Below, piece by piece: positions 4,291 through 63,011 of a stretch of 63,011 nt of DNA. The DNA is taken from the NCBI GenBank assembly GCA_902779165.1, contig CACZAN010000023.1:1-63011 (forward strand), in the 5' to 3' direction. Position 1 is the first letter of the stretch. Every line of letters begins with the position of its first letter. Source of the DNA: an uncultured Bacteroidales bacterium (GTDB lineage: Bacteria > Bacteroidota > Bacteroidia > Bacteroidales > Bacteroidaceae). Under the pieces are notes generated by a model, which made no database searches, had not been told where the DNA came from, and saw only the letters and a list, made by a program, of their open reading frames with translations. The translations under genes were made by a program, and so were the position numbers.

Positions 4291-7179
4291 ATGAGAAAAC
4301 TACTACTTTTAATTACGGCTCTGCTGACACTGGGTGTGAGCGGGGCATGGGCAGATGTCACCGTCAAAATCAATGATCAAACTGATTTAGATGGTATTAC
4401 TAATCAAAGCACATCGGAAGCGACTGCGACTCACAAATATGGTGTGTTCTCTGGTTCAGATGTTGCGAACACTCCTTATTATACGACTTTCACGACTAAT
4501 GAGACGGCTGGAGTCGCAGGTCTTATAGTTTCCACTACGGCTAAAATGATTAAACCAACACATGTTGCAAGTGGTTATGCTGGTTATGGACATGTGTTTG
4601 CAATTTATCCTGCTGATGACAATACGAACACCTATACCTTTACGATAACAGCCCCTAGTGGTTATTATATTAAGAGTTATTCTTTTAAAGCAATTAGTAC
4701 TAGTTCTTCTGGCACTTTCAATATCAGCACTGTTGTCGGAGGGACTGCGACACCAGTATCATCTACACTTACGCAGTTCTCTGCTACTGTAAATGCTACT
4801 AGTGCTGCTTTTACCGTAAAAAGGAATCAGACTGGAACAGCTAAAATGCTCTGCCTTTCTCAGTTTTTTGTTACCCTTTCTTCCACAGTGCCAACATACG
4901 ATGGTAGTTATACAGCACTGAATATTAACAATACAACAGGAGAATTTGCTCATGACGCATGTTCAAATACCAGTTCAACGAGCTGGTATTGTAGATGGAA
5001 TTCAACGAGTACTCCTGCTGGATTAGCTTTGCAAACAGGAACTTATAATAATATGGCGTGGAATGCAGGAAAGTCTGCTATTGATCTTCATTCTTCTTAT
5101 AATCCAACATATACCATTACCGCTCCTTCAGGTTATTTGATTGCGGGATACATGATTACCATTCATTCGGGAGCTGCAACCAGTATTACACCTTCGGGTT
5201 ATGGATCTGCTGCAATATCGACAGATGCTTCGAATCCTACATATTTGTATGTGACAGATATTAATGCGAAGACTGCCTCGTTTAAGCGTACTGGTCCAAG
5301 TACAGATGGCTATGCAACATCATTTATAGTTTATTTAAAGGAGGCCGTAGAAATAACCTACGTGGTAAAGAACAGCGGAGGAACAGAGATTTTCAGATCT
5401 GAAGCTATAGAGACCTGGCCTGGAACTGCAATTACTACGTTGCCGTCTGAGTTCAAACGTGATTTCTGCTCTTATAATGAGGTTAGTGAAACAGCTGATG
5501 TTGCTAAAGAGATAAACTTTACCGCCACATGGGAATTCCCATTTGAAATATCTGATACTTATGCGGGTGCTCATTGGTACGATATGTCGATTCGTTCAAC
5601 CTGGTATGTGACTAGTGACAAAACCGAGGGCGGTGCTCTTAAAACTGTTAATGCAAATGCTTTAGGACTTGCTACAGACCCCTATCAGTGGGCGTTCGTA
5701 GGTAATCCTTATAATCTTAAGTTATATAATAAGGATAAAGGCGAAGACTATGTTTATGCATGGACAGCAGCTTCAAATGAGAATATCCCGGCCTTCGTTG
5801 ATGCTGCAACAGGAAATTCATGGACGATTAAGCGCAGCACGGCTACTGGCTACACAAATGCATTCATGCTTACGATTCCAGATTATGGCTATCAGGTGAA
5901 TCAATTTGGTGGTGAGGGCGGTTTGCTGAAGATTTGGAATAGTACAACAACGGCAGATGCAGGCAGTGCTTTCAAGGTGTTTGATGTGCCTGATGATTTC
6001 GCAGAGTATGTCACCTCTGAGATTGCTCCTTACATGGAAAACTCCGCTACTTATTTCAACTGGACGGATGATGCACGCTCCGCTATAGGTTACGATGCAA
6101 GCTACAAGACGACTTGTACTTATGCGAAATATGCTGAAATGAAAAATGCGTTAACGACTGCATTAAGTGACCTTAGTGACAAAGTAAACTATCCTCCAAC
6201 AGGTTATTATCGTTTGCATAATCTTCAGCATACTACGAAGTATCTTGGTCAAGAGGGCCTTTTAGCCGCATTTACAGATAATAATAAGGCAAACACAGTT
6301 GTGAAGTTGACAAAGCATTCTACAACAAATACGTATACCATCCAAATACAAGGTAAGTACATTCAAGCACCTGACGGGATATCTACGGGAGGTTATCAGG
6401 TGGAAACAGGCAATGACGAGGTATGGTTTACACCAACTGTGAACACTATAGGTTATGCAGCGTTTTCTGCTGGCACTAGTGACTATAACTACATTCACTG
6501 TAATGGCTCATCTGCAATTGTAGGTTGGGATTCCGGTGCCAACGCATCCCACTGGGCAGTTGAGGATGCTTCCTCTTTCACCGGTACACTTACCAATGCC
6601 AAAGACAAGAGTGGCGCTACTAGTAGCTATGCTACACTCTGCGTACCCTTCAATATCACGGGCATTACTGGTGCAAGTGCCTACATTCCTACTATTGATG
6701 GCAGCTATCTGACGATGGGTGAAGGTGCAACTACGATTGCAGCTGGCACTCCCGTGATTCTCGTAGGCGAAGAAAATGCAGGCAGCTACACGGCTACTAT
6801 TGGTAGTGATTACGTTACATCGCCCGTTGCTGCTTCTGGCTCAAATGCTCTGTCGGGTACCTTCACAAGCATTGCACTCGACTGCACTGCCGCTACAGGA
6901 ACGAACTACGTACTGGGCTTCGATAGCGACAATGACAACCGCATCGGCTTCTATCACGTGGCCAACGCTTCCTTCCCGCTCAAGGCTAACCGTGCATACC
7001 TGACACTTGGTGGCGGTGGTGTCAAGGGCTTCGCCATCAGCTTCGACGAGACTGCTGTTACGTCCTTGAAGGATGGTCAGACGAAGGACAATGCAATCTT
7101 CAACCTCGCTGGTCAGCGTGTCAGCAAGGCCAATAAGGGCATCTACATCGTGGGTGGCAAGAAAGTGGTCGTGAAGTAA
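4291..7179 (+). CDS. Large secreted protein with C-terminal sorting-like tail
   Basis: The 962-residue protein begins with a clear signal peptide (about 1-21, ending ...SGAWA). The body is rich in Ser, Thr, Gly and Tyr and looks like a chain of beta-sandwich domains. One stretch near 770-910 starts 'SYATLCVPFNITG' and is typical of Bacteroidales surface proteins. The end (about 935-962, IFNLAGQRVSKANKGIYIVGG) is the short tail seen on two other secreted proteins in this window. No catalytic motif is visible, so a binding or adhesive role is possible but unproven. The first three quarters are clearly more A/T-rich than the last quarter, which suggests a mosaic gene. A start at 4291 fits the signal peptide. 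Confidence 0.7.
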   Translation: MRKLLLLITALLTLGVSGAWADVTVKINDQTDLDGITNQSTSEATATHKYGVFSGSDVANTPYYTTFTTNETAGVAGLIVSTTAKMIKPTHVASGYAGYGHVFAIYPADDNTNTYTFTITAPSGYYIKSYSFKAISTSSSGTFNISTVVGGTATPVSSTLTQFSATVNATSAAFTVKRNQTGTAKMLCLSQFFVTLSSTVPTYDGSYTALNINNTTGEFAHDACSNTSSTSWYCRWNSTSTPAGLALQTGTYNNMAWNAGKSAIDLHSSYNPTYTITAPSGYLIAGYMITIHSGAATSITPSGYGSAAISTDASNPTYLYVTDINAKTASFKRTGPSTDGYATSFIVYLKEAVEITYVVKNSGGTEIFRSEAIETWPGTAITTLPSEFKRDFCSYNEVSETADVAKEINFTATWEFPFEISDTYAGAHWYDMSIRSTWYVTSDKTEGGALKTVNANALGLATDPYQWAFVGNPYNLKLYNKDKGEDYVYAWTAASNENIPAFVDAATGNSWTIKRSTATGYTNAFMLTIPDYGYQVNQFGGEGGLLKIWNSTTTADAGSAFKVFDVPDDFAEYVTSEIAPYMENSATYFNWTDDARSAIGYDASYKTTCTYAKYAEMKNALTTALSDLSDKVNYPPTGYYRLHNLQHTTKYLGQEGLLAAFTDNNKANTVVKLTKHSTTNTYTIQIQGKYIQAPDGISTGGYQVETGNDEVWFTPTVNTIGYAAFSAGTSDYNYIHCNGSSAIVGWDSGANASHWAVEDASSFTGTLTNAKDKSGATSSYATLCVPFNITGITGASAYIPTIDGSYLTMGEGATTIAAGTPVILVGEENAGSYTATIGSDYVTSPVAASGSNALSGTFTSIALDCTAATGTNYVLGFDSDNDNRIGFYHVANASFPLKANRAYLTLGGGGVKGFAISFDETAVTSLKDGQTKDNAIFNLAGQRVSKANKGIYIVGGKKVVVK

Positions 7180-52655: not shown

Positions 52656-52904
52656 ATGATTACCAAGGACAGCATAGAAACCGCCTACAGCTTCCTCCAC
52701 CAGAAGCGTAACGTCTACATCCACTCCACCCTCGACTGGCAGCGAGACGACATCGAAGTCGCCATTGCCAGCTATGTCGACGACATGAGCCCCGAACTCT
52801 ATGCCGCCCTCTCCGCCGCCCGTCCCGACTTTCTGAGAGACCACCGCCACTTCTCAGAGGACATCACCGCCGCCGTCGACCGGTTAGAGCACCTTCTCTC
52901 CTGA
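52656..52904 (+). CDS. Small conserved-looking protein, unknown
   Basis: The 82-residue acidic, helical protein (MITKDSIETAYSFLHQKRNVY...) has no signal peptide and no recognised motif. It begins 63 bp after the ABC exporter and keeps the same G+C-rich codon use as its neighbours, so I treat it as a real gene of that unit. There is no basis for a function. Confidence 0.55.
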   Translation: MITKDSIETAYSFLHQKRNVYIHSTLDWQRDDIEVAIASYVDDMSPELYAALSAARPDFLRDHRHFSEDITAAVDRLEHLLS

Positions 52905-53252: not shown

Positions 53253-53274
53253 TGCACTTTGCACATTTGCACAT
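53253..53274. repeat. 22-bp word, left copy beside the cassette
   Basis: This 22-bp sequence (TGCACTTTGCAC then ATTTGCACAT) is repeated exactly at 62186-62207 and, inverted, at 62032-62053. The direct copies enclose about 8.9 kb containing the whole primase/restriction cassette. Confidence 0.7.
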
Positions 53275-53292
53275 TCTTCGCTGTGCCTTTGA

Positions 53293-55272
53293 CTACATCA
53301 GTTTGCGGAACTTGCCTTTGTCTTCGCCCTTGGTGATTTTCTGCGCCATACCGTCAGCCTGAAGGCGGCGGATCTTGCTGTTGATACTGTTCGTGTTACC
53401 CTCGTAACCAAAGCAGATATCGATGTCGTGAGCTGTGAAGATTGTGGGTAGGCGACGAAAACCGACAATGGTCTTCTGCTGAAGGCTGTGCTTCGCTGCT
53501 TGTTCCGTCTGACGGTTCTCGTAGAGTTCTTCTCCTGTGGCGAGGAAGAAATGCTGTTGAAAGGCGAAGTGGGCGTTGACGATGAGCAATGCCAACTGGC
53601 GGTCGTACTTATCTGTCTGGAAGTCCGGACCGCACTTCCAACGTCCGTCGGCATCCTGCACCATCTGATTCCAGTGGCGGACGACGATGAAGGGGAGTGC
53701 GTAGTTCATTCCGTGCCAGTAGGGACGCTTTACCAGGTCTTCCATGGCCTTGGAACCGTTCTCCTTGGCATCGGCCATGCGGCGCGCTGTCCAGTCGGTG
53801 AGAATCGTGTCGATGTCCTTGCAAGGAATTTCTCCCTTAGTGCCATCGAGTTGGTAGGCTATCTGACGGAGTGCTTCGTCGCGCTGGCGGTCTTCTTCAG
53901 TATAATCACGCGCCTCGCGCATCTCGAAATTGCTGTCACCAAGGGGTACGGCGGTGATGCGGAACAACAACCCTCGCGCAAAGTTGAAGGTCGTATTCTG
54001 CTTGGCCAAGGCGTCTTCGGTGCCGCTGTACAGGGCATTGAAGTGAACGTCGTACTCGCCCACTATCGAGCTGGAAGTTTTGAGGTAAGCGCCATCGGGT
54101 TCGTTATGGAAGCCCTTCAGGAACAGCTTTTCGATGTCCATGTATGATTTTCGCATCTGGGCGAGAAGGTTATCGAGTTCTGGGTTAAACTGGCTGACAT
54201 GGAGTGGCCACGCTTCGCCATCAATATCCTCGACTGCATTGTATTCCGCCTCGCGAACGGCGGCAGCCGAAGTCTCAGAAGGCATACAACGAAAGATTCC
54301 CTTCGGACGCGGTGTTTTGTTCTTCTCGCCGCCCGACTTCTGATCGCGCTCCTGATTCCACGCGTTGAGGGCCTTAATTTGTGCCTCGTCAGACTTCTTG
54401 ACGGGCTCCATTAACAATTTGTAGAGCTGGACTGCGATGTGCTTGCCACTGCCCGAGCGACCTATCAGCTCCAAGATGCTATTGAGGCGGCACTTGCGCC
54501 CAGGTTCCATGCCAGAGCGATACCAGCAGCGAGTCATCAACGTCATCAAGAAGGCACCTGCAACGAAGAGAGCGGCGATGTAATGACGACGCTTCAGACG
54601 ATGGCACAGCAATTTCAGCAACGGGAACTGCGGGAACAGCTTCTCCACCTCTTTACCTATACGTTCCAGCGTTTGGAGGATGTTGTCTTGAATAGCGTCT
54701 GCCAATCCCAACGCCTTGTTGTGGGCTTCGCGCACCAGCACGCTGTACTTGCGCCCTGCCACCGCTTCCACGGCCTTGCGCATCTCCTTCGATGGCTGCG
54801 GGTCGCTGAAGTTCTCGCTCTCGCGTTTGTGAAGGCGCTTCTGTGCAGCATCTACGATGCGGTCTATCTCTTCTTGACCGCGCTCGCAGATGATTTCCTC
54901 CACGAACTTCTGCTGTTGCAGCACGTGACGTGTGAGGGTTACATTGCCGTCAAGCAGGATGAGCATGTCGCCGCACAGCTTCAAGGCAAAATTGTGGCGA
55001 GAGCCTGCGGGGACGCCGTTGGGCAGCATGGCGTTGATGATGTCCTGCACTTCGCAGCCGAACACCTTCACGGTCTTCAAGTCCTGCGGCAGGGCACTCT
55101 CTGCCAGCTCCTTGGCTGCCTCGGCATCCTCGGTGGCGGTTACAGAGACAGGATTCTCGTCCTTGTCAAAATGGTTCTCGGGATGGGTGGGGCCGCAATT
55201 TCCCACACCCTGGCGGTAGGACTCGCCGAACTGGCGGTCGAACTCGTTGTCAAAAAGTTCTTTTTCTTCCAT
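53293..55272 (-). CDS. DUF3987-like P-loop protein, primase-helicase partner
   Basis: The 659-residue protein has an acidic N-terminal part (about 1-190). A helical segment (about 215-245) precedes an ATPase-like domain whose Walker A is GRSGSGKH (about 268-275). The usual Ser/Thr after the lysine is His. Features of DUF3987 helicase-like proteins follow: ELDNLLAQMRKSYMD (about 365), NALYSGTEDALAKQ (about 410) and FARGLLFRITAVP (about 427). The C-terminal 60 residues look like a winged helix. It is the last gene of a tight operon, 20 bp after the BT4734-like gene. This pair is commonly found together in Bacteroidales. A DNA-replication role is likely but unproven. Confidence 0.65.
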   Translation of the reverse strand: MEEKELFDNEFDRQFGESYRQGVGNCGPTHPENHFDKDENPVSVTATEDAEAAKELAESALPQDLKTVKVFGCEVQDIINAMLPNGVPAGSRHNFALKLCGDMLILLDGNVTLTRHVLQQQKFVEEIICERGQEEIDRIVDAAQKRLHKRESENFSDPQPSKEMRKAVEAVAGRKYSVLVREAHNKALGLADAIQDNILQTLERIGKEVEKLFPQFPLLKLLCHRLKRRHYIAALFVAGAFLMTLMTRCWYRSGMEPGRKCRLNSILELIGRSGSGKHIAVQLYKLLMEPVKKSDEAQIKALNAWNQERDQKSGGEKNKTPRPKGIFRCMPSETSAAAVREAEYNAVEDIDGEAWPLHVSQFNPELDNLLAQMRKSYMDIEKLFLKGFHNEPDGAYLKTSSSIVGEYDVHFNALYSGTEDALAKQNTTFNFARGLLFRITAVPLGDSNFEMREARDYTEEDRQRDEALRQIAYQLDGTKGEIPCKDIDTILTDWTARRMADAKENGSKAMEDLVKRPYWHGMNYALPFIVVRHWNQMVQDADGRWKCGPDFQTDKYDRQLALLIVNAHFAFQQHFFLATGEELYENRQTEQAAKHSLQQKTIVGFRRLPTIFTAHDIDICFGYEGNTNSINSKIRRLQADGMAQKITKGEDKGKFRKLM

Positions 55273-55292
55273 TTTATTTGAACTTTAATAAA

Positions 55293-56069
55293 TTAATAAA
55301 AGGGTTGATTAAAAAAATTTTCTTCATCGATAAAATAAATATCCTCGCGGCAAGGGGCATAGCTGATGCGGCAGGCGTCGATGCAGCTGTCATCCACCAC
55401 AGGCTTTCCCGTCGTGCCGCGTACGCCCAGCAGGTTCAAGTCGCGGGCGAGGCAAATCTGGTTGTCGGAAATGTTTCCGAGCTCCAAGCGCCATTCTGCC
55501 ACCAAGCGAAGACCTTCGCCGGAGCTGGTCTTGTGGGCCAGACGGATGCGCCACGGGAAGCCTGCCACCTGCGTGCGCTGGAACACCTCGTAGGGGTCCA
55601 TAGGCAAATGGTCGCCGTCGAACATAAAGAGACCGCTCAGATGAATGCCCTCCAACTTACGGCGGCGGCGCTTCACGGGCTTGCCCTCTGCATCCAGAAC
55701 GGGGTTGTTCAGTTTGTCCAGCACGGGCAACGGGTCGAAACTGCGGGCACCGAAGACGAAGCACGGCAACCACATCTTCAGGTCGTTCGTCCACGTCAGC
55801 AACTTCTCGGGCATGCTCTTCTGGCGGAATGCCGCACCCGCACGGGGCTTGACCTCCTGCTTAAGGCAGAACTGCTGGAAGTCGCTGCGGCGTGTCCAGG
55901 GCGTGAGATCCAGCCCCTTTGCCACAGCCTCGGCCACAGCACGACGGGTAGCAATCTTCCAGGCCACGGCACCGCTGTCCACTGTCTCGTTAAACAATGC
56001 GAGGGTGCAGGGCACAATCTCGCCATTGAATTGGTTCGACTGAAATACGAAGCGATAATTCTGTTCCAT
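55293..56069 (-). CDS. BT4734/VirE-N-like primase-type protein
   Basis: The 258-residue protein resembles the BT4734/BF3469 or 'VirE N-terminal' family. The core reads LFMFDGDHLPMDPYEVFQRT (about 146-165) followed by RIRLAHKTSSGEGLRLVAEWR (about 175-195), which supplies the acidic pair and the basic strand of a primase-polymerase-like fold. Its neighbour is the DUF3987-like protein, the usual partner. The start lies 11 bp after the preceding gene. Catalysis is inferred from the family and has not been shown. Confidence 0.65.
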   Translation of the reverse strand: MEQNYRFVFQSNQFNGEIVPCTLALFNETVDSGAVAWKIATRRAVAEAVAKGLDLTPWTRRSDFQQFCLKQEVKPRAGAAFRQKSMPEKLLTWTNDLKMWLPCFVFGARSFDPLPVLDKLNNPVLDAEGKPVKRRRRKLEGIHLSGLFMFDGDHLPMDPYEVFQRTQVAGFPWRIRLAHKTSSGEGLRLVAEWRLELGNISDNQICLARDLNLLGVRGTTGKPVVDDSCIDACRISYAPCREDIYFIDEENFFNQPFY

Positions 56070-56080
56070 ACGCGCGTTCC

Positions 56081-56638
56081 TTATTTATTATTAATAGTGG
56101 GGTTAATTAGCTCCGAGCGGTGGCGGCCCACGCAAACATTCATCTGCGCCTGCGCCTGCAACAGCATACGCTCTATCTGAGGGCCGCAGGGCAGCGTGGC
56201 GAGTATCTTCACTTCGCCGGCGGCGGTATCCAACCAAATCTGCAAGCCTGCGCCGTTGTCCAGCAGCATTCGCCCTTCCAGCCCTTCGGGCAGCGTAGGC
56301 TTCTGTTTCTGCTCGCTTTCGGTCAGGAACGTGAACTGCTCGAACAGTGCGGCAACGGGGTCGGCGCAGTCCTTGGCATCGACGTTCAAGTGCAGGCTAT
56401 AGGAGCTTTCCTTTTCGCCTTCGGAGCGGTAGAAACTGCTGCCGCCCAGCTGTTTCAGCATGGTGCGATTGCTGGGCTTCGACCCCACGGGGATAAATTC
56501 GCGGTAGCCATTCGACCACTCATTCAGTTTGCCCCGCGTCGTCATGTCCGGCTTCGTCTTCGGACGGCTGATGTAGGAAGCCAAGTCCCCGCTTGGCAGG
56601 GACTGGGCTGTTGTTGTGTTTTGTTTCTTAGTACTCAT
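56081..56638 (-). CDS. Unknown protein of the primase-type operon
   Basis: The 185-residue protein has a polar, probably disordered N-terminus (about 1-45) and then a compact region with alternating strands (about 60-165), ending near IERMLLQAQAQMNVCVGRHR. I do not recognise it. It is packed between two other unrecognised or replication-type genes with gaps of 10-11 bp, so it belongs to the same transcript. Confidence 0.6.
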   Translation of the reverse strand: MSTKKQNTTTAQSLPSGDLASYISRPKTKPDMTTRGKLNEWSNGYREFIPVGSKPSNRTMLKQLGGSSFYRSEGEKESSYSLHLNVDAKDCADPVAALFEQFTFLTESEQKQKPTLPEGLEGRMLLDNGAGLQIWLDTAAGEVKILATLPCGPQIERMLLQAQAQMNVCVGRHRSELINPTINNK

Positions 56639-56648
56639 ACCTTATTTA

Positions 56649-57233
56649 TTATATAATGGTGAATTTCATTCCAAGACGCTCCAGGAAGTCGAAGTAGCGC
56701 AAGGCCCACGCCTCAGCATCCTCCTTGCTCTCGAAGCCGTCTACGTCAAACAACTCCTCATTGCAGTTGCCAACAGCGTAGCACCACACTGAAATCTTTC
56801 CCTTGCGGTAGCTGTCTTTCGGGTTCTCAAACACCCGCAGTTCCAACGTCAATGCTTCGTCCTCGACATCCAGCGTGACTCCCAGACGGCGCAGGGACTC
56901 GCACCGTCTTCGCAGAACCACATCGACATCGCACTCGGGCAACTCCAAGGACTTGCCGAGCATCTGGGCCAACGCCAGCGCACCTACTTTGCCACCCGCC
57001 TCGCAGAGGAACGTATATTCAGTAGGCTCTCCACCGAAGTAGTCCTCCAATGGCTGCAGCGCCTCGCCCGGTGTCGTCACCCACCACTTGTCGCCAAGGA
57101 ATGTTACTCGTAATGCCCATCCAGAATATTCTTCGTAAACAACTGCCTGGAACTCTCTGTTCTTCTCTCCACACCTTACTAAACCTTCCAGTGTGGGGCC
57201 GCACGTAGCGGACTTTTGTTTTTTCTTTGCCAT
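56649..57233 (-). CDS. Unknown protein, first gene of the primase-type operon
   Basis: From the ATG at 57233 (MAKKKQKSATCG, 194 residues) the protein is acidic with a basic N-terminal tip. It contains a WALRVTFLGDKWWVTTPGEAL segment (about 37-57) and a C-terminal stretch GFESKEDAEAWALRYFDFLERLG that looks like a helix-rich cap. I find no known domain. It is separated from the upstream genes by a terminator, so it needs its own promoter, which I could not place. Confidence 0.6.
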   Translation of the reverse strand: MAKKKQKSATCGPTLEGLVRCGEKNREFQAVVYEEYSGWALRVTFLGDKWWVTTPGEALQPLEDYFGGEPTEYTFLCEAGGKVGALALAQMLGKSLELPECDVDVVLRRRCESLRRLGVTLDVEDEALTLELRVFENPKDSYRKGKISVWCYAVGNCNEELFDVDGFESKEDAEAWALRYFDFLERLGMKFTII

Positions 57234-57264
57234 ATCGTTTGAGATTTTGGTCACCCTTTACGGC

Positions 57265-57300
57265 AAAAAAGACGACGCAGAAGAATCCACGTCGTCTTTT
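57265..57300 (-). terminator. Intrinsic terminator between the restriction unit and the primase unit
   Basis: AAAAGACGACG (57267-57277) and CGTCGTCTTTT (57290-57300) pair perfectly over a 12-nt loop. On the minus strand the stem is followed by TTTTTTG. Two more GTCGTCTTT copies lie at 57381-57390 and 57402-57410. The stop splits the minus-strand genes into two transcripts. Confidence 0.75.
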
Positions 57301-57408
57301 GAGTGTTCACGAATAGCGCAAGTGTCTATCGCTCAGCCCATTCTATTTGTGCGAATACCCTCAATTTCTATTTCTGCATCGTCGTCTTTTCAGTTTTTTG
57401 TGTCGTCT

Positions 57409-58266
57409 TTATTCGAACGCGTCTGATACATCAAGACCATCCTGGAATTTTTCCCAAGCATTTTTTTCCTTATTCTGTCGTCCATATTCCATGCGTTTCT
57501 CCTCTGCTTCCACAAACTTCTGATAGTTTGGGCTGGGGTTAGCTGGGTTCAGCAACTCTACGATATCTATAAGGTCTTGAGTTATGTTCTCAGGGTTGTG
57601 CGCTTTGCGCAAATCCTCAGGGTCGAAGAGCGTGGGGTCATCTTTCGTGCTGGCCTTACCGTTGACAAAAACCGATGATGCTATTTGCCATGCTTCGCCA
57701 TCGTTTTTGAATACAATATACCCTCTCCGTTTCCATTCGATGATGATGTAGTGCAGTTCGCGAGCATCGCTAAGCCACCACACGTATGATGTAGTATTTC
57801 CCTCTGTAAAACAATTAATAAAGTCTCTCTTATCCGTCTTTATTTTCAGCAATCCGCCATCAGTCTCCGACTTTGACAGGAAATCGTAAAGGTCGCTTAT
57901 CTGCGCCATACGGAATGGGTCTCCACCTTTCTTGATAACAGGAAATGCCTGATGCATACCACCCGCCAACTTCTTTTCCCTTGTTTCTTTGGGCTTGCTG
58001 TTGACAGGGTCAGCAGCACCTTCTTCCCTATAAGGAGCGTATTTGTATGGTAATGCTATTTTATTTATTCTTTTTTCAACGTCTCTTCCTAGTTTTGTGT
58101 CATCATGTTCTTTAGCAATTTTTCCCAATGCATATAGAGAAAGGAATGCAGATTCAGAACACCCGTTGGCTATTTTTTTATCAATTATAGCCAAAGCCTT
58201 CTCTGGAGTTACTATATCCCCAGAGAAATCGTCCTGAACATATTCTACACCCTTTTTCTTAGGCAT
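57409..58266 (-). CDS. Unknown protein linked to the MmeI-like enzyme (gene 3)
   Basis: The 285-residue protein has a basic start (MPKKKGVEYVQDDFSG), a helical stretch with a TPEKALAIIDKKI element (about 20-32), and a long middle with aromatic-rich strands (about 155-200, YVWWLSDARELHYIIIEWKRRGYIVF). I do not recognise it. It starts 2 bp after the preceding gene and ends just before the terminator. Codon use is clearly more A/T-rich than in the genes left of 57 kb. Confidence 0.6.
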   Translation of the reverse strand: MPKKKGVEYVQDDFSGDIVTPEKALAIIDKKIANGCSESAFLSLYALGKIAKEHDDTKLGRDVEKRINKIALPYKYAPYREEGAADPVNSKPKETREKKLAGGMHQAFPVIKKGGDPFRMAQISDLYDFLSKSETDGGLLKIKTDKRDFINCFTEGNTTSYVWWLSDARELHYIIIEWKRRGYIVFKNDGEAWQIASSVFVNGKASTKDDPTLFDPEDLRKAHNPENITQDLIDIVELLNPANPSPNYQKFVEAEEKRMEYGRQNKEKNAWEKFQDGLDVSDAFE

Positions 58267-58268
58267 TG

Positions 58269-59027
58269 TTATTTTTCTTCCTCGTTTTCAGAAATTAGCC
58301 CCAATGCTCCGTCGGGAGTAACTCCGAACTTTCTTTTTGAGAATTTGTTCATTTCATCAACTATTGGCTGAAGAAAATCCTCTTCAGTGGTATATTCAAG
58401 ATTCCACCATTTATATTTTCCATTGAGAATCATAATCATTTTATATTGCCACACCTGACCCAATAGTCTATCTGCCATTTCCTCAATACAAGGAAGATAA
58501 ACTGTATTTAGTGCTAAGATATCATCGCGGTCGGAACGTAGCATAAAAAAATCTGGGTCCCAGTCACCGTTATAAGACTGAAGATGAATTATATGCTTCG
58601 TTTGAGGAGGGGGGGCAATCTCTACGCCCAAATCAAGTAGATCCCTCAAGGAGTCGATATGAGGGTCTGCACGCTGAGAGGTCCTAGCGATATCTTCCCA
58701 CAGAAAATCTATAAATTCTTGCCATTCAAGATGGGAATCGGATAGACAAATGGTACTGACATCACGTAATTCGACACGATTCCAGACAACGCCCTCCATG
58801 AAAACCTTGCTAAACAAATGCTTGTCTTTCGGTGCTCTTTCTTTGCTGCCATAGGTTACAACGGGATAACTATGAGTTTCCACCTTAAAAGGTTGGTCTT
58901 TATCCCCTTTTAACTGACTCGTAGCAATTAGAGTACCTATCTGCATTCCAACATCTTTACCATATTTTATAATCTGGTACGGCGGTTGCAGCGGTACGTA
59001 AGTGGTGCTTACAATCTTATTATCCAT
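58269..59027 (-). CDS. Unknown protein linked to the MmeI-like enzyme (gene 2)
   Basis: The 252-residue acidic protein has no signal or membrane segment. Distinctive parts are YGSKERAPKDKHLFSKVFMEGVVWNRVELRDVSTICLSD (split near residue 75) and a tryptophan-rich end, VWQYKMIMILNGKYKWWNLEYTTEEDF. No known family comes to mind. It lies 10 bp after the restriction-modification gene and 2 bp before gene 3, and shares their low G+C, so the three probably arrived and work together. Confidence 0.6.
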   Translation of the reverse strand: MDNKIVSTTYVPLQPPYQIIKYGKDVGMQIGTLIATSQLKGDKDQPFKVETHSYPVVTYGSKERAPKDKHLFSKVFMEGVVWNRVELRDVSTICLSDSHLEWQEFIDFLWEDIARTSQRADPHIDSLRDLLDLGVEIAPPPQTKHIIHLQSYNGDWDPDFFMLRSDRDDILALNTVYLPCIEEMADRLLGQVWQYKMIMILNGKYKWWNLEYTTEEDFLQPIVDEMNKFSKRKFGVTPDGALGLISENEEEK

Positions 59028-59037
59028 AACTGTCTTA

Positions 59038-61953
59038 TCATTTTGTCAGTTCTTGATACAATTTAAACAATTCTGCCACGCACTGGCTCTCAGTCATCGT
59101 CTTGACGTTGAAGCCATAAGCTTGCATGACAGCGCGGTCGTTTGCTTGATGTGCGCGGCGCAGTTCGAGGGGCATAGTAGCTTCATCATAGAGAGCGGCC
59201 AATGATGAGTCGGGATAGAGGGCGCGAGCGTCAAGGATGGATTGTGCCGTCTGCTCAATCTTCTCACGTTGCTCATCAGTAGGCAATGGCCAAGGAAAGT
59301 TATTGTAGATTAACTTATTTGAATAGCGGTAATCGCTTTTCAGACGTCCACCTACTGCTCTAACCCAAGCCATATGGACATTGCTCTCCATTACTCCAAA
59401 ATGGTAAAGACTGGCGTTTGCAACTATCAATGCTGCGTTGCTTGTAATGGTGTTTGAATCCATATACCCCATTGGTATATAACGTCTTCGCTCAGAGGAG
59501 GTGCTTGGAACCAAGAGGTATGAACTATCAGGATGTGAGATGTAGAAAAAGAGATGTGGGATATCTGCCTTTTCTCGTGTGGGTGCTGCTGTACTTGCAA
59601 GCCTAAGTTGTCGAACATTCTCTACTCGTTCTCTAAGTATTTTGCTGCTATGAATGATATCAGGACTTACGCCTTTCAACCAAAAGCAATATCTTATTTT
59701 ACGATTAATGAATTCTACAGCGCCGAGGAACGGTCGAATGTATGGAGCCAAATTAGGTTCTTTTTGCAGCACAAGGTCACGCTCTTCGGGAGTCAACAAC
59801 AGATTACCCCCATCGTTTGGCATATTACCAAAATCCATGATTGGAACATCAGATATTGGCTTGGTACGATTGTCAATAATGATGTTTTCAGAATCAACAA
59901 GAAATCCATTTATATTATTAACGCTTACAGGGTTGTTGGCAGTATAGAGGTACTTATGATTCCTTTCTTTATAGCTGAATCCGATTACAACACAATGTAC
60001 GTGAGCTTTCAAAGTGGCCTCACTATCCCATCGGAATGTACGATGAGCAAAATTGATGTATATGCCGTCTTCAATCAATAGTCCTAGAAGACTGGCTACA
60101 GCTTGCCCCTGAGTAATAGAGTTTGTTGAGACCAATGCCGCCTCAATATTTGTTCCTTTCATTATATCCACTGCCTTCTTATACCAACAGCAGACATAAT
60201 CCATATTACCTAAATTCTTCCATTTCTTGCCAAAAATAGATAACATGTCTTCTTTCTGGGAAGCTGACATTAATTTCCCGCCCACAAACGGCGGATTGCC
60301 CATGATGTAGTCAAAGGTGACATGACGTGTTTCAGGAGCCTTGGGCTTTGTGCGGAACTCATATTCCTCGCTATATAGGTTGATGTCGCCATACTTGATA
60401 ACAGGCTCGCTCACCATGTCTATCTTCTCTTCTTCTATGGGATATATGGTGGTGCGATGTGCCACGATGGTAGGATTCTTCTCCTTAACTTCCCACTCAT
60501 CCCAAGGCACTCGTAGCGCATTCCCCTCCCTGATATTCGCATAGCTCTTCAGCGGCAGGAAGTCGATGTCGTGCTGCACAATGCGCTCAGTTTCGGCCAG
60601 CATCTGCGCCTCGGAAATCCAGAGGGCGGTGGTGGCTACGGTGACGGCGAAGTCGTTGATTTCGATGCCGTAGAACTGATGGATGCTGACCTTGATGGGA
60701 TTCAGGAACTCGCCCATGAGGACTTGTCCGTGGTAGCGCTGGCGCAGGGCTTCGTTCTCCAGTCGGCGCAGGCTGAGGTAGGTCTCGGTGAGGAAGTTGC
60801 CGCTGCCGCAGGCGGGATCGAGGAAAGTGAGGCGAGCGAGGCGGTCCTGATAGGCTTCGAGCTTTCGCACACGGGTGCGCTCCACTTTCTCCTCAAGGAT
60901 GTCGTCCAGCTCGCGGCGCAGGTCGTTGAGGAACAGCGGGTCTATGACCTTATGGATGTTCTCGATGCTGGTGTAGTGCATGCCTCCGCTGCGGCGCGTC
61001 TCGGGGTTCAGGGTGCTCTCGAAGACGGCTCCGAAGATGGTGGGCGAGATTTCGCTCCAGTCGAAGTCCAGGCTGGCGTTTTGCAACAGTGTCTGCTTCA
61101 GCTCCTCGGTGAACTGCGGGATTTCTATCTTCTCCTCGAAGAGTCCGCCGTTGGTGTAGGGAAAGGCCTTGAGGTCGTCCTGCAGGTACTTGCTGCGCTG
61201 GTCGAGGGGCATGTTCAGGATTTCGAAGAGATCTTGCAGGGCGCGGCGCAAGTCTTTGGGCTCGTAGGAACTGAGGTAGTCGTGGAACTGGTCGTGGCGG
61301 AAGATGCCGGCATCCTCGGCATAGAGGCAGAAGACAATGCGCACGCAAAGGATGTTCAGCCACCGCAGGGCTTCGGGTGAGTTGTCGTCGTACTGTGCCA
61401 GCAGCGCGTCGTAGATGCGGCCTACGATTTCGCCAGCCTGCATCGACACCTCCATCTCCTTGGTGAGGTGTTCGTTCTTGGCATCAACGAGAAATGTGAG
61501 GCGGTAGTACTCTCGTCCGAGGTCTGCGAGCAGGATGCTCTCGGGCTCGCCGTTGGGCTGCTCCATGTCGTAGATCAGGAACTCTGCGAAGTTGCAAGTC
61601 ACGATCCATCGCGGATGCTCAGACAGCGGCATGTTGGCCACGTAGCGCTTGGCCTGCTGGAAAGGATTCAGGCGCGAACCGTCGCTCTGTGTCACCGGCG
61701 CGCGCAAATCCTTGCCCAGAGATTTCTGCTCTATGAGTACACGCGTGGAGCGGATGTGGCCGTCGATGAAGTTGGTCTTGTCGACCTTCACCTGCTCTTC
61801 GTAGCGGATGAAGTCGGAGATGTCCTCCACACCATAGACGTTGGTCAGCAGTTCGGCCCAGAAAATCTGCGAGTCGCCTTTCTCGTAGCCTCTGCCTGCC
61901 CATCGTTTGGCGAAGTCCGCCGCTGCTGCTGCCATCTGTTTCTCAGTCTTCAT
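59038..61953 (-). CDS. MmeI-like type IIG restriction-modification enzyme
   Basis: I use the ATG at 61953 (MKTEKQMAAAAADFAKRW, 971 residues). It lies behind a TATCTTTG box. The N-terminal part has a nuclease-type motif, D...LIEQKSLG (about 62-76), corresponding to the D-x-ExK of MmeI. The adenine methyltransferase core has motif I DPACGSGNFLTET (about 378-390) and motif IV NPPF (about 551). The C-terminal third (about 680-900), which would choose the target, has lower G+C than the first half. Such single-chain enzymes both modify and cut DNA. Without BREX or DISARM partners, this looks like a stand-alone type IIG system with two extra genes. Confidence 0.8.
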   Translation of the reverse strand: MKTEKQMAAAAADFAKRWAGRGYEKGDSQIFWAELLTNVYGVEDISDFIRYEEQVKVDKTNFIDGHIRSTRVLIEQKSLGKDLRAPVTQSDGSRLNPFQQAKRYVANMPLSEHPRWIVTCNFAEFLIYDMEQPNGEPESILLADLGREYYRLTFLVDAKNEHLTKEMEVSMQAGEIVGRIYDALLAQYDDNSPEALRWLNILCVRIVFCLYAEDAGIFRHDQFHDYLSSYEPKDLRRALQDLFEILNMPLDQRSKYLQDDLKAFPYTNGGLFEEKIEIPQFTEELKQTLLQNASLDFDWSEISPTIFGAVFESTLNPETRRSGGMHYTSIENIHKVIDPLFLNDLRRELDDILEEKVERTRVRKLEAYQDRLARLTFLDPACGSGNFLTETYLSLRRLENEALRQRYHGQVLMGEFLNPIKVSIHQFYGIEINDFAVTVATTALWISEAQMLAETERIVQHDIDFLPLKSYANIREGNALRVPWDEWEVKEKNPTIVAHRTTIYPIEEEKIDMVSEPVIKYGDINLYSEEYEFRTKPKAPETRHVTFDYIMGNPPFVGGKLMSASQKEDMLSIFGKKWKNLGNMDYVCCWYKKAVDIMKGTNIEAALVSTNSITQGQAVASLLGLLIEDGIYINFAHRTFRWDSEATLKAHVHCVVIGFSYKERNHKYLYTANNPVSVNNINGFLVDSENIIIDNRTKPISDVPIMDFGNMPNDGGNLLLTPEERDLVLQKEPNLAPYIRPFLGAVEFINRKIRYCFWLKGVSPDIIHSSKILRERVENVRQLRLASTAAPTREKADIPHLFFYISHPDSSYLLVPSTSSERRRYIPMGYMDSNTITSNAALIVANASLYHFGVMESNVHMAWVRAVGGRLKSDYRYSNKLIYNNFPWPLPTDEQREKIEQTAQSILDARALYPDSSLAALYDEATMPLELRRAHQANDRAVMQAYGFNVKTMTESQCVAELFKLYQELTK

Positions 61954-61982
61954 GTTTTGAGGTAATTTATTGTTTACGGGCA

Positions 61983-61990
61983 CAAAGATA
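61983..61990 (-). promoter_or_regulatory. Promoter -7 box of the MmeI-like operon
   Basis: The complement reads TATCTTTG, 29 bp before the ATG at 61953. The inverted copy of the 22-bp word (62032-62053) lies just upstream of the expected -33 region. Confidence 0.6.
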
Positions 61991-62031
61991 CACATTATTT
62001 TTGAGACAGCCACAAAATTTGGCGGAAAATT

Positions 62032-62053
62032 GTGCAAATGTGCAAAGTGCAAA
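62032..62053. repeat. 22-bp word, inverted copy
   Basis: This is the exact reverse complement of 53253-53274, except that the leading base pair of the extended match differs. It lies between the MmeI-like promoter and the AT-rich spacer. Confidence 0.6.
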
Positions 62054-62185
62054 CGTTTTTCGGAAAATGAAGAAAGGAAAATGGTTGTAATATAATAGTA
62101 ATATTATATGTAATATATTAATATATAAATAATTATAATATATACTATACTCTAATCTCCTCTTTCGCGCTCGGCTTAAAGTATT

Positions 62186-62207
62186 TGCACTTTGCACATT
62201 TGCACAT
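62186..62207. repeat. 22-bp word, right copy beside the cassette
   Basis: An exact direct copy of 53253-53274. The 62054-62185 stretch before it is A/T-rich (runs of atatta) with nothing else recognisable. Confidence 0.7.
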
Positions 62208-62227
62208 ATCGCTGCCTGCCGAAAGCC

Positions 62228-62315
62228 GTAACGTCCTCCGCCGAAAGACGTCACGTCCTCCACGAGAAGACGTGACGTCTTATTCCGCAGGACGTAACGT
62301 CTTCCAGAGGAGGGC
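62228..62315. repeat. 22-bp tandem array with GACGTNACGTC cores
   Basis: Four units of 22 bp begin GTAACGTCC, GTCACGTCC, GTGACGTCT and GTAACGTCT. At unit borders three cores read GACGTNACGTC, an 11-bp palindrome whose middle base varies. It lies between divergent genes, upstream of the HU-like promoter. The array at 40861-40932 is a relative. Confidence 0.85.
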
Positions 62316-62392
62316 CGCGAGAGGGGAGAAAATAGTTGCTGAAAAGAAGCAGAAAATAATTGCAGAAAAGCATGAAAAAAAGTGGTGAAAAA

Positions 62393-62424
62393 TTTGCATA
62401 TCTCGCTGATTTTTCGTACCTTTG
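62393..62424 (+). promoter_or_regulatory. Promoter of the HU-like gene
   Basis: TTTG (62393-62396), a 20-bp gap and TACCTTTG (62417-62424). The -7 region lies in a 23-bp block identical to 193-215. The leader is long (about 210 nt) and contains the tandem AT word and ggctgcgcgcg. Confidence 0.65.
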
Positions 62425-62639
62425 CAGTGTCAAAAGAAAAAAGATAATGTATAATTGATAATGTATAATGTATGATTTGGCTGCGCGCGCCGATTTGACA
62501 TGCTACATTTGACATTTGACATTCGCTTTCCGATTGACAACAACCACTTTCATTAACCTTAACTCCCGAAGCCCCAATAGGAGTTTCTCCGTAAAACCTG
62601 AAAAACACACACGGAGATTAGCAGGGGGCACCAAGTACG

Positions 62640-63011
62640 ATGAAGAAGATTCAGTATTCCCTGGCCCTGATGGCCAACCCCATCCACGAAGGGGACCCCA
62701 AGAAGGCCTATGCCAACCTCCAGCTCACCGGCATCGTAGGCACCCGCGAACTCGCCCAGCACATCATCGAGCACGGCTCCACGTTCAGCCGCGGCACCAT
62801 CGAGGGCATCATCAGCGACCTCGGCGTCTGCGTGCGTGAGTTCATCCTCCAGGGCTACAAGGTCGTCCTCGGCACCATCGGCTCCCTCGAACCCGAGATC
62901 AAGAGCTCCGGTGCCATCAGCCTCGAAGCCTTCACCGAGAGCAACATCGAGGACTACTACGTCAACTTCCGCCCCAGCGACGACCTCTCCGGCCTGCGCG
63001 CCGACGCCGAG
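62640..63011 (+). CDS. HU-like DNA-binding protein (partial, runs off the window)
   Basis: The ATG at 62640 opens a frame that is still open at the window end (124 codons). MKKIQYSLALMANPIHEGDPKKAY and later GTRELAQHIIEHGSTFSRGTIEGIISDLG and FRPSDDLSG match the larger Bacteroidales HU/IHF-like 'histone-like' family, not the 90-residue housekeeping HU. Members bind and bend DNA. In many Bacteroides genomes such a gene is next to VirE-N/DUF3987 genes and an N-acetylmuramoyl-L-alanine amidase. Here it diverges from the restriction operon. The C-terminus is missing only because the window ends. Confidence 0.8.
   Translation, partial: MKKIQYSLALMANPIHEGDPKKAYANLQLTGIVGTRELAQHIIEHGSTFSRGTIEGIISDLGVCVREFILQGYKVVLGTIGSLEPEIKSSGAISLEAFTESNIEDYYVNFRPSDDLSGLRADAE

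Follow-up and report, generated by a model that had tools for sequence, protein, structure and literature searches.

What kind of unit, if any, is formed by the genes within positions 53253-62207 of a 63,011-nt contig from an uncultured Bacteroidales bacterium? The contig (C23 of a 3.59-Mb assembly in 75 contigs), whose whole length we call the window, had been read from sequence alone as carrying a candidate defence or satellite-like cassette. Our follow-up of this original prediction inclines us, if only slightly, to the view that 53253-62207 is one member of a satellite-like element family, whose X-core-X' arrangement - copies of a repeat, X, in opposite orientation around an AT-rich core - would serve replication by the element's own primase and helicase. 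Open reading frame (ORF) calls place seven genes (p1-p7) at 53293-61953, all on the minus strand and separated by gaps of 2-20 bp except for a 175-bp break between p5 and p4, just as had been predicted, and the exact 22-bp copies announced for both ends are indeed there (at 53253 and 62186), joined by a third, inverted one at 62031-62051. From left to right, the features are:

53253..53274, plus strand: end copy of X, starting 18 nt past the p1 stop
53293..55272, minus strand: p1, DUF3987-like, 659 aa, with an atypical P-loop (GRSGSGKH) and, by eye, a C-terminal winged helix-like stretch
55293..56069, minus strand: p2, BT4734-like primase of the archaeo-eukaryotic primase (AEP) type, motif I FDGD present
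56081..56638, minus strand: p3, recurrently just upstream of BT4734/DUF3987
56649..57233, minus strand: p4, in the 150 relatives searched seen only in this genome
57235..57408, minus strand: p5/p4 break, 175 bp, with a terminator-like stem-loop (15-bp stem, U-rich side)
57409..58266, minus strand: p5, variable protein, partner of p6
58269..59027, minus strand: p6, PPYQII...ETHSHPVV...VWNKVEL family without Pfam entry
59038..61953, minus strand: p7, MmeI-type IIG restriction-modification enzyme, ATG start, promoter-proximal cargo
61983..61990, minus strand: operon promoter element TATCTTTG, of Bacteroidales -7 type, ending ~47 nt after X'
62031..62053, minus strand: X', the inverted copy, from the repeat search
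62054..62183, no strand: AT-rich core, 77% AT over 134 bp measured, proposed origin unwinding element
62184..62207, plus strand: distal upstream copy of X, proposed element boundary, with the exact 22-bp copy at 62186

The 21-bp core of the window's X has three sites in the 3.59-Mb genome at up to two mismatches and occurs nowhere else in it, while chance would give none within the window. Read in the orientation of the operon, the order is X, ~130 bp of AT-rich DNA, X' (inverted), promoter, the genes from MmeI to the DUF3987 stop, and X once more. To see how far this order recurs, 38 DUF3987 loci from related Bacteroidaceae/Prevotella were searched for a repeat near the DUF3987 stop that has one direct and one inverted upstream partner, spaced as a pair. 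With mismatches tolerated (pair 80-300 bp apart) such X triples were found in 21/38 loci versus 3/388 control gene ends, one of the three being locus L026's own X, and with exact 13-mers (60-320 bp) in 15/38 versus 2/418, or 0/416 in effect, both of these control triples being the same DUF3987 ends in duplicate loci. The order X, core (93-183 bp), X', operon, X is kept in all 21 elements, and in 18 of them the start of X has an offset of -3 to +27 nt relative to the DUF3987 stop. Their cores are 62-80% AT (mean 0.73) versus 0.60 in 157 other ORF-free windows of the same loci (p 1.8e-10), and a -7 promoter motif lies within 200 bp after X' in 19/21 elements (shuffles 0.07), while between X and X' it is found in 2/21, no more than in shuffles. 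The elements measure 4.77-11.76 kb, the labelled genes of the smallest (L028) being those for p6, p5, BT4734 and DUF3987 only. Each has an X of its own, mostly built from short iteron-like units repeated ~2-4 times, and three elements with three different X reside in the window's genome (contigs C23, C26 = L126 and C22 = L128). Examples of these private repeats are:

X of the window: ATGTGCAAATGTGCAAAGTGCA
X of L026: TATTGCATTATTGCATTGC
X of L047: CAGATGGCAGATGGCAG
X of L159: TGACAGATGACAGATGACAG
X of L031: TGGTCATTTGGTCATTTGGTCA
X of L144: GAAAAGAGGAAAAGAGGAAAG
X of L139: CCTCATAACCTCATAACATCATAAC

At the level of sequence, layout, private repeats and exchangeable cargo define an element family that is real and recurrent and that is probably undescribed so far. 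What stands of the predicted defence or satellite-like element is a recurrent, modular, defence-carrying unit whose end repeats are of importance; HU membership and a following amidase (see below) have to be given up. A separate observation on the cores is that those of L139, L047 and L128 hold near-perfect AT palindromes of ~45-50 bp, far above shuffles, while others, the window's core among them, have none.

The two genes beside the end copy of X had been taken for a VirE-N/BT4734-like and DUF3987-like pair. This holds by way of family relatives but not through Pfam matches of p1 and p2 themselves, which stay under cut-off: the search gave no convincing match for p1 and a weak one for p2 (PF08800, BT4734-like_N, E 0.01), whose relative in L038 does pass (1.8e-5). 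We call p1 DUF3987-like because the L043 member of the wider p1 set passes the Pfam DUF3987 cut-off (6.9e-7) and a single profile made from all DUF3987-type proteins labels p1-type and L043-type alike; p1 relatives occur in 44 of the 150 genomes in our set of relatives. By the primase motif definitions in an excerpt of PMC5862659, p2 has motif I (GLFMFDGDHL), as do 10/12 separate BT4734 proteins in the form hhhDxD, and the same excerpt predicts DUF3987 to be the helicase of mobile-element primases. BT4734 and DUF3987 are split in the window and fused in some relatives (L128, L144). We also note that one end of a 64-kb IMG/VR record (L171, 1292-5792) holds a DUF3987 module, next to it DUF5675 and, after that, a gene that by eye looks tyrosine-integrase-like.

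Similarity among X repeats follows DUF3987 identity (Mantel r 0.62, 0/20,000 permutations). In the 13 elements with p6 the partial r of X is 0.58 with DUF3987 and 0.00 with p6, and along the thirds of DUF3987 the correlation runs 0.28, 0.59, 0.64. Inspected by eye, the C-terminal 58 residues of split-type DUF3987 resemble a winged helix. Their EYGYD...RLKIL version is common to L038 and L042, which also have in common an ATATT-type X. Cargo, by comparison, is not what X follows, since four MmeI elements (window, L038, L130, L159) have four different X. As for the boundaries, alignments from core to distal X start at most 13 bp from distal X in 7/8 pairs, and those crossing the DUF3987 stop end at most 17 bp from end X in 9/11, the L026/L126 alignment running 67-69 bp past it and L025/L126 stopping before L025's long repeat. 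So X is the element edge in most, albeit not all, comparisons.

A mechanism may be envisaged in which DUF3987 would be a self-loading helicase-initiator whose C-terminal part recognises the element's own X iterons, with two hexamers loading at the inverted X/X' pair and melting the AT-rich core, the BT4734 primase providing the primers and a host polymerase the synthesis. Phage P4 has, beside ori, a crr site as second cis-site; the third X might be a second cis-site of this (crr-like) sort or else a terminus that serves in recovering the unit. The first promoter of the element would drive the restriction enzyme, which would guard the cell, hence the element, against phages and rival DNA. By analogy, X-core-X' plus a primase-helicase pair would represent the iteron-origin anatomy of Staphylococcus aureus pathogenicity islands (SaPI) and staphylococcal cassette chromosome (SCC) elements. 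A bolder proposal, to which we give a little less than an even chance, is that we are dealing with new integrase-less defence replicons of Bacteroidaceae, whose private iterons, read by the C-terminal part of DUF3987, would allow coexistence without cross-talk while restriction systems are exchanged in a slot.

For this family, satellite replication, excision and phage protection are what we infer from sequence. Several properties of the proposed initiator weigh against our reading: p1 has H at the S/T position of its P-loop, many DUF3987 proteins show no GxxGxGK match, and our search found no solved structure related to p1. In the phage and plasmid records searched, neither p1 nor L144-type DUF3987 was found, the L043 type leading to two faecal phage records, matched weakly at 21-26% identity and lacking annotation, and to no plasmid. 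Moreover, the X/DUF3987 covariation may reflect common descent rather than binding. A full X triple is missing from 17/38 loci. Of these, 8 extend less than 6 kb upstream and two (L036, L129) are interrupted or truncated; the repeats of L134 are arranged differently, in L048 and L133 there is no more than an X'/X-like pair, and no X-type repeats were found in L045, L127, L140 and L142. Nor are the edges always sharp: L025, L026 and L126 have ~60-70 bp in common beyond end X, L025/L026 similarity begins 5-72 bp outside distal X, and some alignments do not touch the elements at all, 26 of those on the upstream side being entirely beyond distal X (e.g. in HU genes) and several others downstream of end X (e.g. 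in a DUF5675 gene common to L034, L043 and L046). Finally, no PHROG packaging family was found among the seven window proteins, no tyrosine integrase (PF00589) near modules in 16 genomes, where some module contigs are short and a distant one is possible (the sole PF00589 matches on module contigs being 49 kb away in G034 and 86 kb away in G015), and no empty site. The original prediction proposed to check whether the block's boundaries move together and to compare it with a related genome lacking it; as no empty site was found, such movement is not shown directly.

This last point is one reason to consider X as an operator to which DUF3987 or another module protein would bind (at X') in order to autoregulate a static chromosomal defence operon. 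The position of X', ~36-130 nt before the -7 motif in 19/21 elements, suits such a role. An operator, however, could do without a further copy on the far side of an AT-rich core and without one past the last stop, and in 7/8 aligned pairs similarity between elements begins at distal X; to our minds this option is unlikely, yet deserves to be kept in sight.

Mobility of the elements itself seems likely, judging by their scatter and by the three different X in one genome. A transposon-like unit whose terminal inverted repeats are X' and X, or an island that leaves by recombination of the outer direct X copies, with an enzyme acting in trans, would agree with the fixed layout of direct outer copies and an inverted inner pair as well as with the finding that similarity between elements often begins and ends near X. 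Yet a shared trans-acting recombinase would hardly tolerate that X differs within one genome, there is no solo X site in the window's genome, and no tyrosine integrase was found near the modules (the search extending to neither transposases nor serine recombinases). We regard this scenario as doubtful, rather more so than the operator. For our preferred satellite-like element, insertion would probably proceed by homologous or helper-supplied recombination, because no integrase was seen near the elements in a survey of tyrosine integrases; an att pair was not recognised at them either.

Do the genes between the X copies belong together? The four proteins p3-p6 had been left unassigned and stay so, with no convincing Pfam or PHROG family, no NCBIfam match and, for the confident structure model of p6, no PDB match at E<=1e-3. 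In the relatives set p6 is present in 4/150 genomes, own included, with two copies in the latter (C23, C15), and in an order-wide sample in 1/393, again its own. Scanning a species-genome collection with one conserved p6 motif gave 25 loci, which is a lower bound, under titles that read Bacteroidaceae, Bacteroidales, Prevotellaceae or Prevotella and, for a single cultured isolate, Xylanibacter ruminicola D31d. Of the titles, 7 refer to a ruminant or to a ruminant stomach and 4 are without source, and 13 further loci bear RUG/RUI names, which we take to denote rumen collections. Judging by these relatives, the window too may come from the rumen. Adding the window and L009 (C15) makes 27 p6 loci (L022-L024 were dropped, being the same loci as L025, L047 and L049). 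A p5-type neighbour lies beside p6 in 25/27, a partly circular figure in that the p5 profile was built from p6 neighbours (single-sequence queries label 18/27), and BT4734 or DUF3987 follows downstream on the same strand in 20/27 (in L027 and L040 BT4734 only, at the contig end). As for the rest, L009 has a RecA-like ATPase and a BT4734 primase, five show none and one is cut. All p3 matches (14/14) are upstream of BT4734/DUF3987, whereas p4 has a second copy on C17 (36% identity) and none in the other genomes of the 150. The expected co-occurrence of eight genes therefore survives as linkage of p6 with p5 and of p3 with BT4734/DUF3987, and not as one fixed block, since p4 is confined to this genome and MmeI is optional and mostly elsewhere. 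We consider p6 and p5 to be probably element-specific accessory or control proteins. For the p5/p4 break, transcript folding gave the 15-bp stem with its U-rich 3' side at a whole-stretch z of only -1.5, and the stem-loop is absent from the list of a simple terminator scan. The C17 copy of p4 belongs to a third module in the window's genome (L127, G000:C17, 10730-18999) that also has DUF3987, type I restriction genes, a lysozyme-like gene (by eye) and a protein of 536 aa resembling p5, and in which the X triple was not found.

Upstream of p6, the kind of restriction gene changes from element to element. The predicted type IIG restriction-modification enzyme is borne out for p7 by five of five MmeI domains in one chain (N-terminal, spacer, methyltransferase, target recognition and C-terminal; PF20464-PF20467, PF20473) and by 1153 bits against PADLOC REase_MTase_IIG. 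On the same strand upstream of p6, MmeI is found in the window, L036 and L038, type ISP in L047, a cytosine methylase with a Bpu10I-type nuclease in L040, HsdM/HsdS in L035 and a DpnI N-terminal fragment in L025; in L030, where DUF3987 and X were not found, HsdM/HsdS lie 1.4 kb upstream. Restriction genes thus precede p6 in 8/24 loci not cut near it (L029, L037 and L049, with p6 within 600 bp of the contig end, being left out). DUF3987 loci without p6 have them in 5/16 (L085, L132, L135 and L137 left out as cut), namely HsdR/HsdS in L127, MmeI in L129, L130 and, nearby, L134, and a restriction endonuclease (REase) plus Dcm in L144; in the IMG/VR contig L169, DUF3987 is preceded by an HsdR-type gene. 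For comparison, 14 windows of the genus served as controls, and the restriction probes detected nothing in them; 11 lie beside ABC-transporter orthologues, and the other three (L010, L012 and L013, fetched for HU-like matches) are not fully neutral, L012 having a DUF3987/HU pair and L010 overlapping L128. A hand tally of 13/39 versus 0/13 control windows yields p 0.02 (Fisher test). Restriction genes inside X are seen in 7/21 elements (MmeI, type ISP, a Dcm pair, the DpnI fragment), or in 6/20 without L159, which was found via its MmeI gene and biases the count. Going by these gene orders, the restriction genes are exchangeable, optional cargo in a promoter-proximal slot. Cargo of another kind may be present in L128 (G000:C22, 15680-17572), where an ATPase resembling PD-T4-4, AriA and GajA-type defence ATPases lies inside X with a 205-aa partner, together a candidate new defence pair. 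In L178 (G066:C33, 6623-6851), adjacent matches cover just 47 N-terminal and 31 C-terminal residues of MmeI, ~0.6 kb from an orf82 homologue and with an HU-type match at 4469-4801, possibly the scar of a lost element.

Could unrelated genes simply have gathered by chance in a variable region, with the restriction enzyme an ordinary chromosomal gene? MmeI-type genes of the genus are indeed mostly solitary and elsewhere, a single one (L159) of 20 further MmeI loci fetched being in a DUF3987 module, and the MmeI locus L160 has HU and a lysozyme-like gene without such a module. But the recurrent order over 27 p6 loci, the several restriction kinds upstream of p6, the X layout and both X-triple searches speak against it, as does a rough Poisson estimate of 0.18 MmeI genes expected near modules against ~5 observed (inputs: a hand count of 38 MmeI loci, or 40 contig-level places, and ~100 DUF3987 places of 12 kb; L134 included), and we think it very improbable. 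Least credible of all is that X-core-X' is an invertible promoter for phase variation, a device common in Bacteroidales and suggested here by inverted copies of ~20-40 bp lying ~120-240 bp apart upstream of an operon: there is a third X, and X/X' is not of the usual kind since the -7 motif follows X' in 19/21 elements and is inside the pair in 2/21, as in shuffles.

Two further features lie outside the proposed satellite-like element, to the right of distal X:

62417..62424, plus strand: promoter element facing HU, TACCTTTG, -7-type, by eye
62640..63011, plus strand: HU-HIG gene (PF18291, 1.1e-19), the contig ending within it

We take both TATCTTTG and TACCTTTG for elements of the Bacteroidales -7 type. 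The divergent HU-like gene of the original prediction is present and matches PF18291, but it is no cassette member, as HU is outside X in 12/12 elements where it was seen. An amidase had been expected to follow it; instead, contig C59, which opens with a 52-bp stretch found again at the ends of C23 and of C15, completes HU and continues into a 1148-aa protein, and that C59 follows C23 rather than C15 is uncertain. The 52-bp stretch is probably a shared repeat that broke the assembly. Between the window (62536-63011) and L009 (C15, 10986-11461), 476 bp comprising HU and DNA upstream of it show 98% identity, while p6 of C23 and C15 share 36% identity; the HU identity points to recent gene conversion or duplication. 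Near other modules there are DUF5675 (L048, L034) and a lysozyme-like gene (L047, by eye). In the flanks of the window's element we further observed a short AT-rich stretch (62443-62489) with partial matches at dozens of genome sites, perhaps promoter-linked or a dispersed repeat, and, adjoining the element at 52656-52904, an 82-aa CdiI_2-like protein (E 0.0054, under cut-off) with homologues in 12/12 relative loci fetched for it, none of which has the block beside them.

In Bacteroidales, VirE-N, DUF3987, HU and amidase genes are familiar as neighbours, the same families standing side by side, and we know of no settled function for these neighbourhoods. Burroughs and colleagues reportedly proposed in 2017 that the expanded HU proteins of Bacteroidetes have to do with recognising invading elements. 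What sets the window family apart is the X layout with its restriction slot, neither of which was met among the literature matches listed, where nothing joined DUF3987 with iterons, X-type repeats or a restriction slot; the excerpt of PMC10434189 among our sources counts VirE, DUF3987 and amidase genes as iron-responsive and contains no mechanism. With X predicting the limits of a unit, the protein that reads it and the genes that count as cargo, the question of function becomes testable. If our reading is true, restriction systems would have a further vehicle in these bacteria, iteron specificity could be examined on a new test case, and relatives of Prevotella, which are hard to transform, might be served by compatible vectors built on a candidate series of cognate origins and initiators.

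Among known systems, p7 resembles MmeI enzymes in having all their domains and differs as cargo inside an X-bounded element. The origins of SaPI and other phage-inducible chromosomal islands (PICI) have inverted arrays around an AT-rich stretch. These islands combine an AEP primase with a Rep helicase, to which the BT4734/DUF3987 pair of our elements may correspond, and like our elements they carry accessory genes. Close to rep they have an origin with iterons that are specific to the element, and SaPI Rep binds these (both from sections of PMC7581432); a further satellite with an initiator-iteron pair is the PICI-like element (PLE), going by a portion of PMC7145576. A SaPI-type iteron origin with an AT-rich core beside a primase-helicase pair is what we see, as architecture only, in 21/38 loci. 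Unlike SaPI/PICI, however, the window family has no integrase, att pair or packaging genes that we found, its helicase is DUF3987-like and its primase BT4734-like, an extra X comes after the helicase gene, and the origin-like pair is at the other end of the operon. Phage P4 combines a fused primase-helicase with two separated cis-sites (ori, crr) and the helper P2. P4-like satellites, with their defence hotspots (as far as an extract of PMC9122126 goes), share with our elements exchangeable anti-phage cargo and perhaps a primase-helicase, whereas the window family, from Bacteroidales, has primase and helicase split, no integrase seen, no Psu/Sid-type genes noticed and a third X that is at best crr-like. 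SCC elements, for their part, differ in having Ccr recombinases and another polymerase family (Cch2/CCPol), but are alike in being chromosomal, with an initiator helicase (a proposed one in our elements), a primase and iterons downstream of the helicase gene, Cch2 of SCCmec binding repeats downstream of its own gene (all by the quoted sections of PMC7581432).

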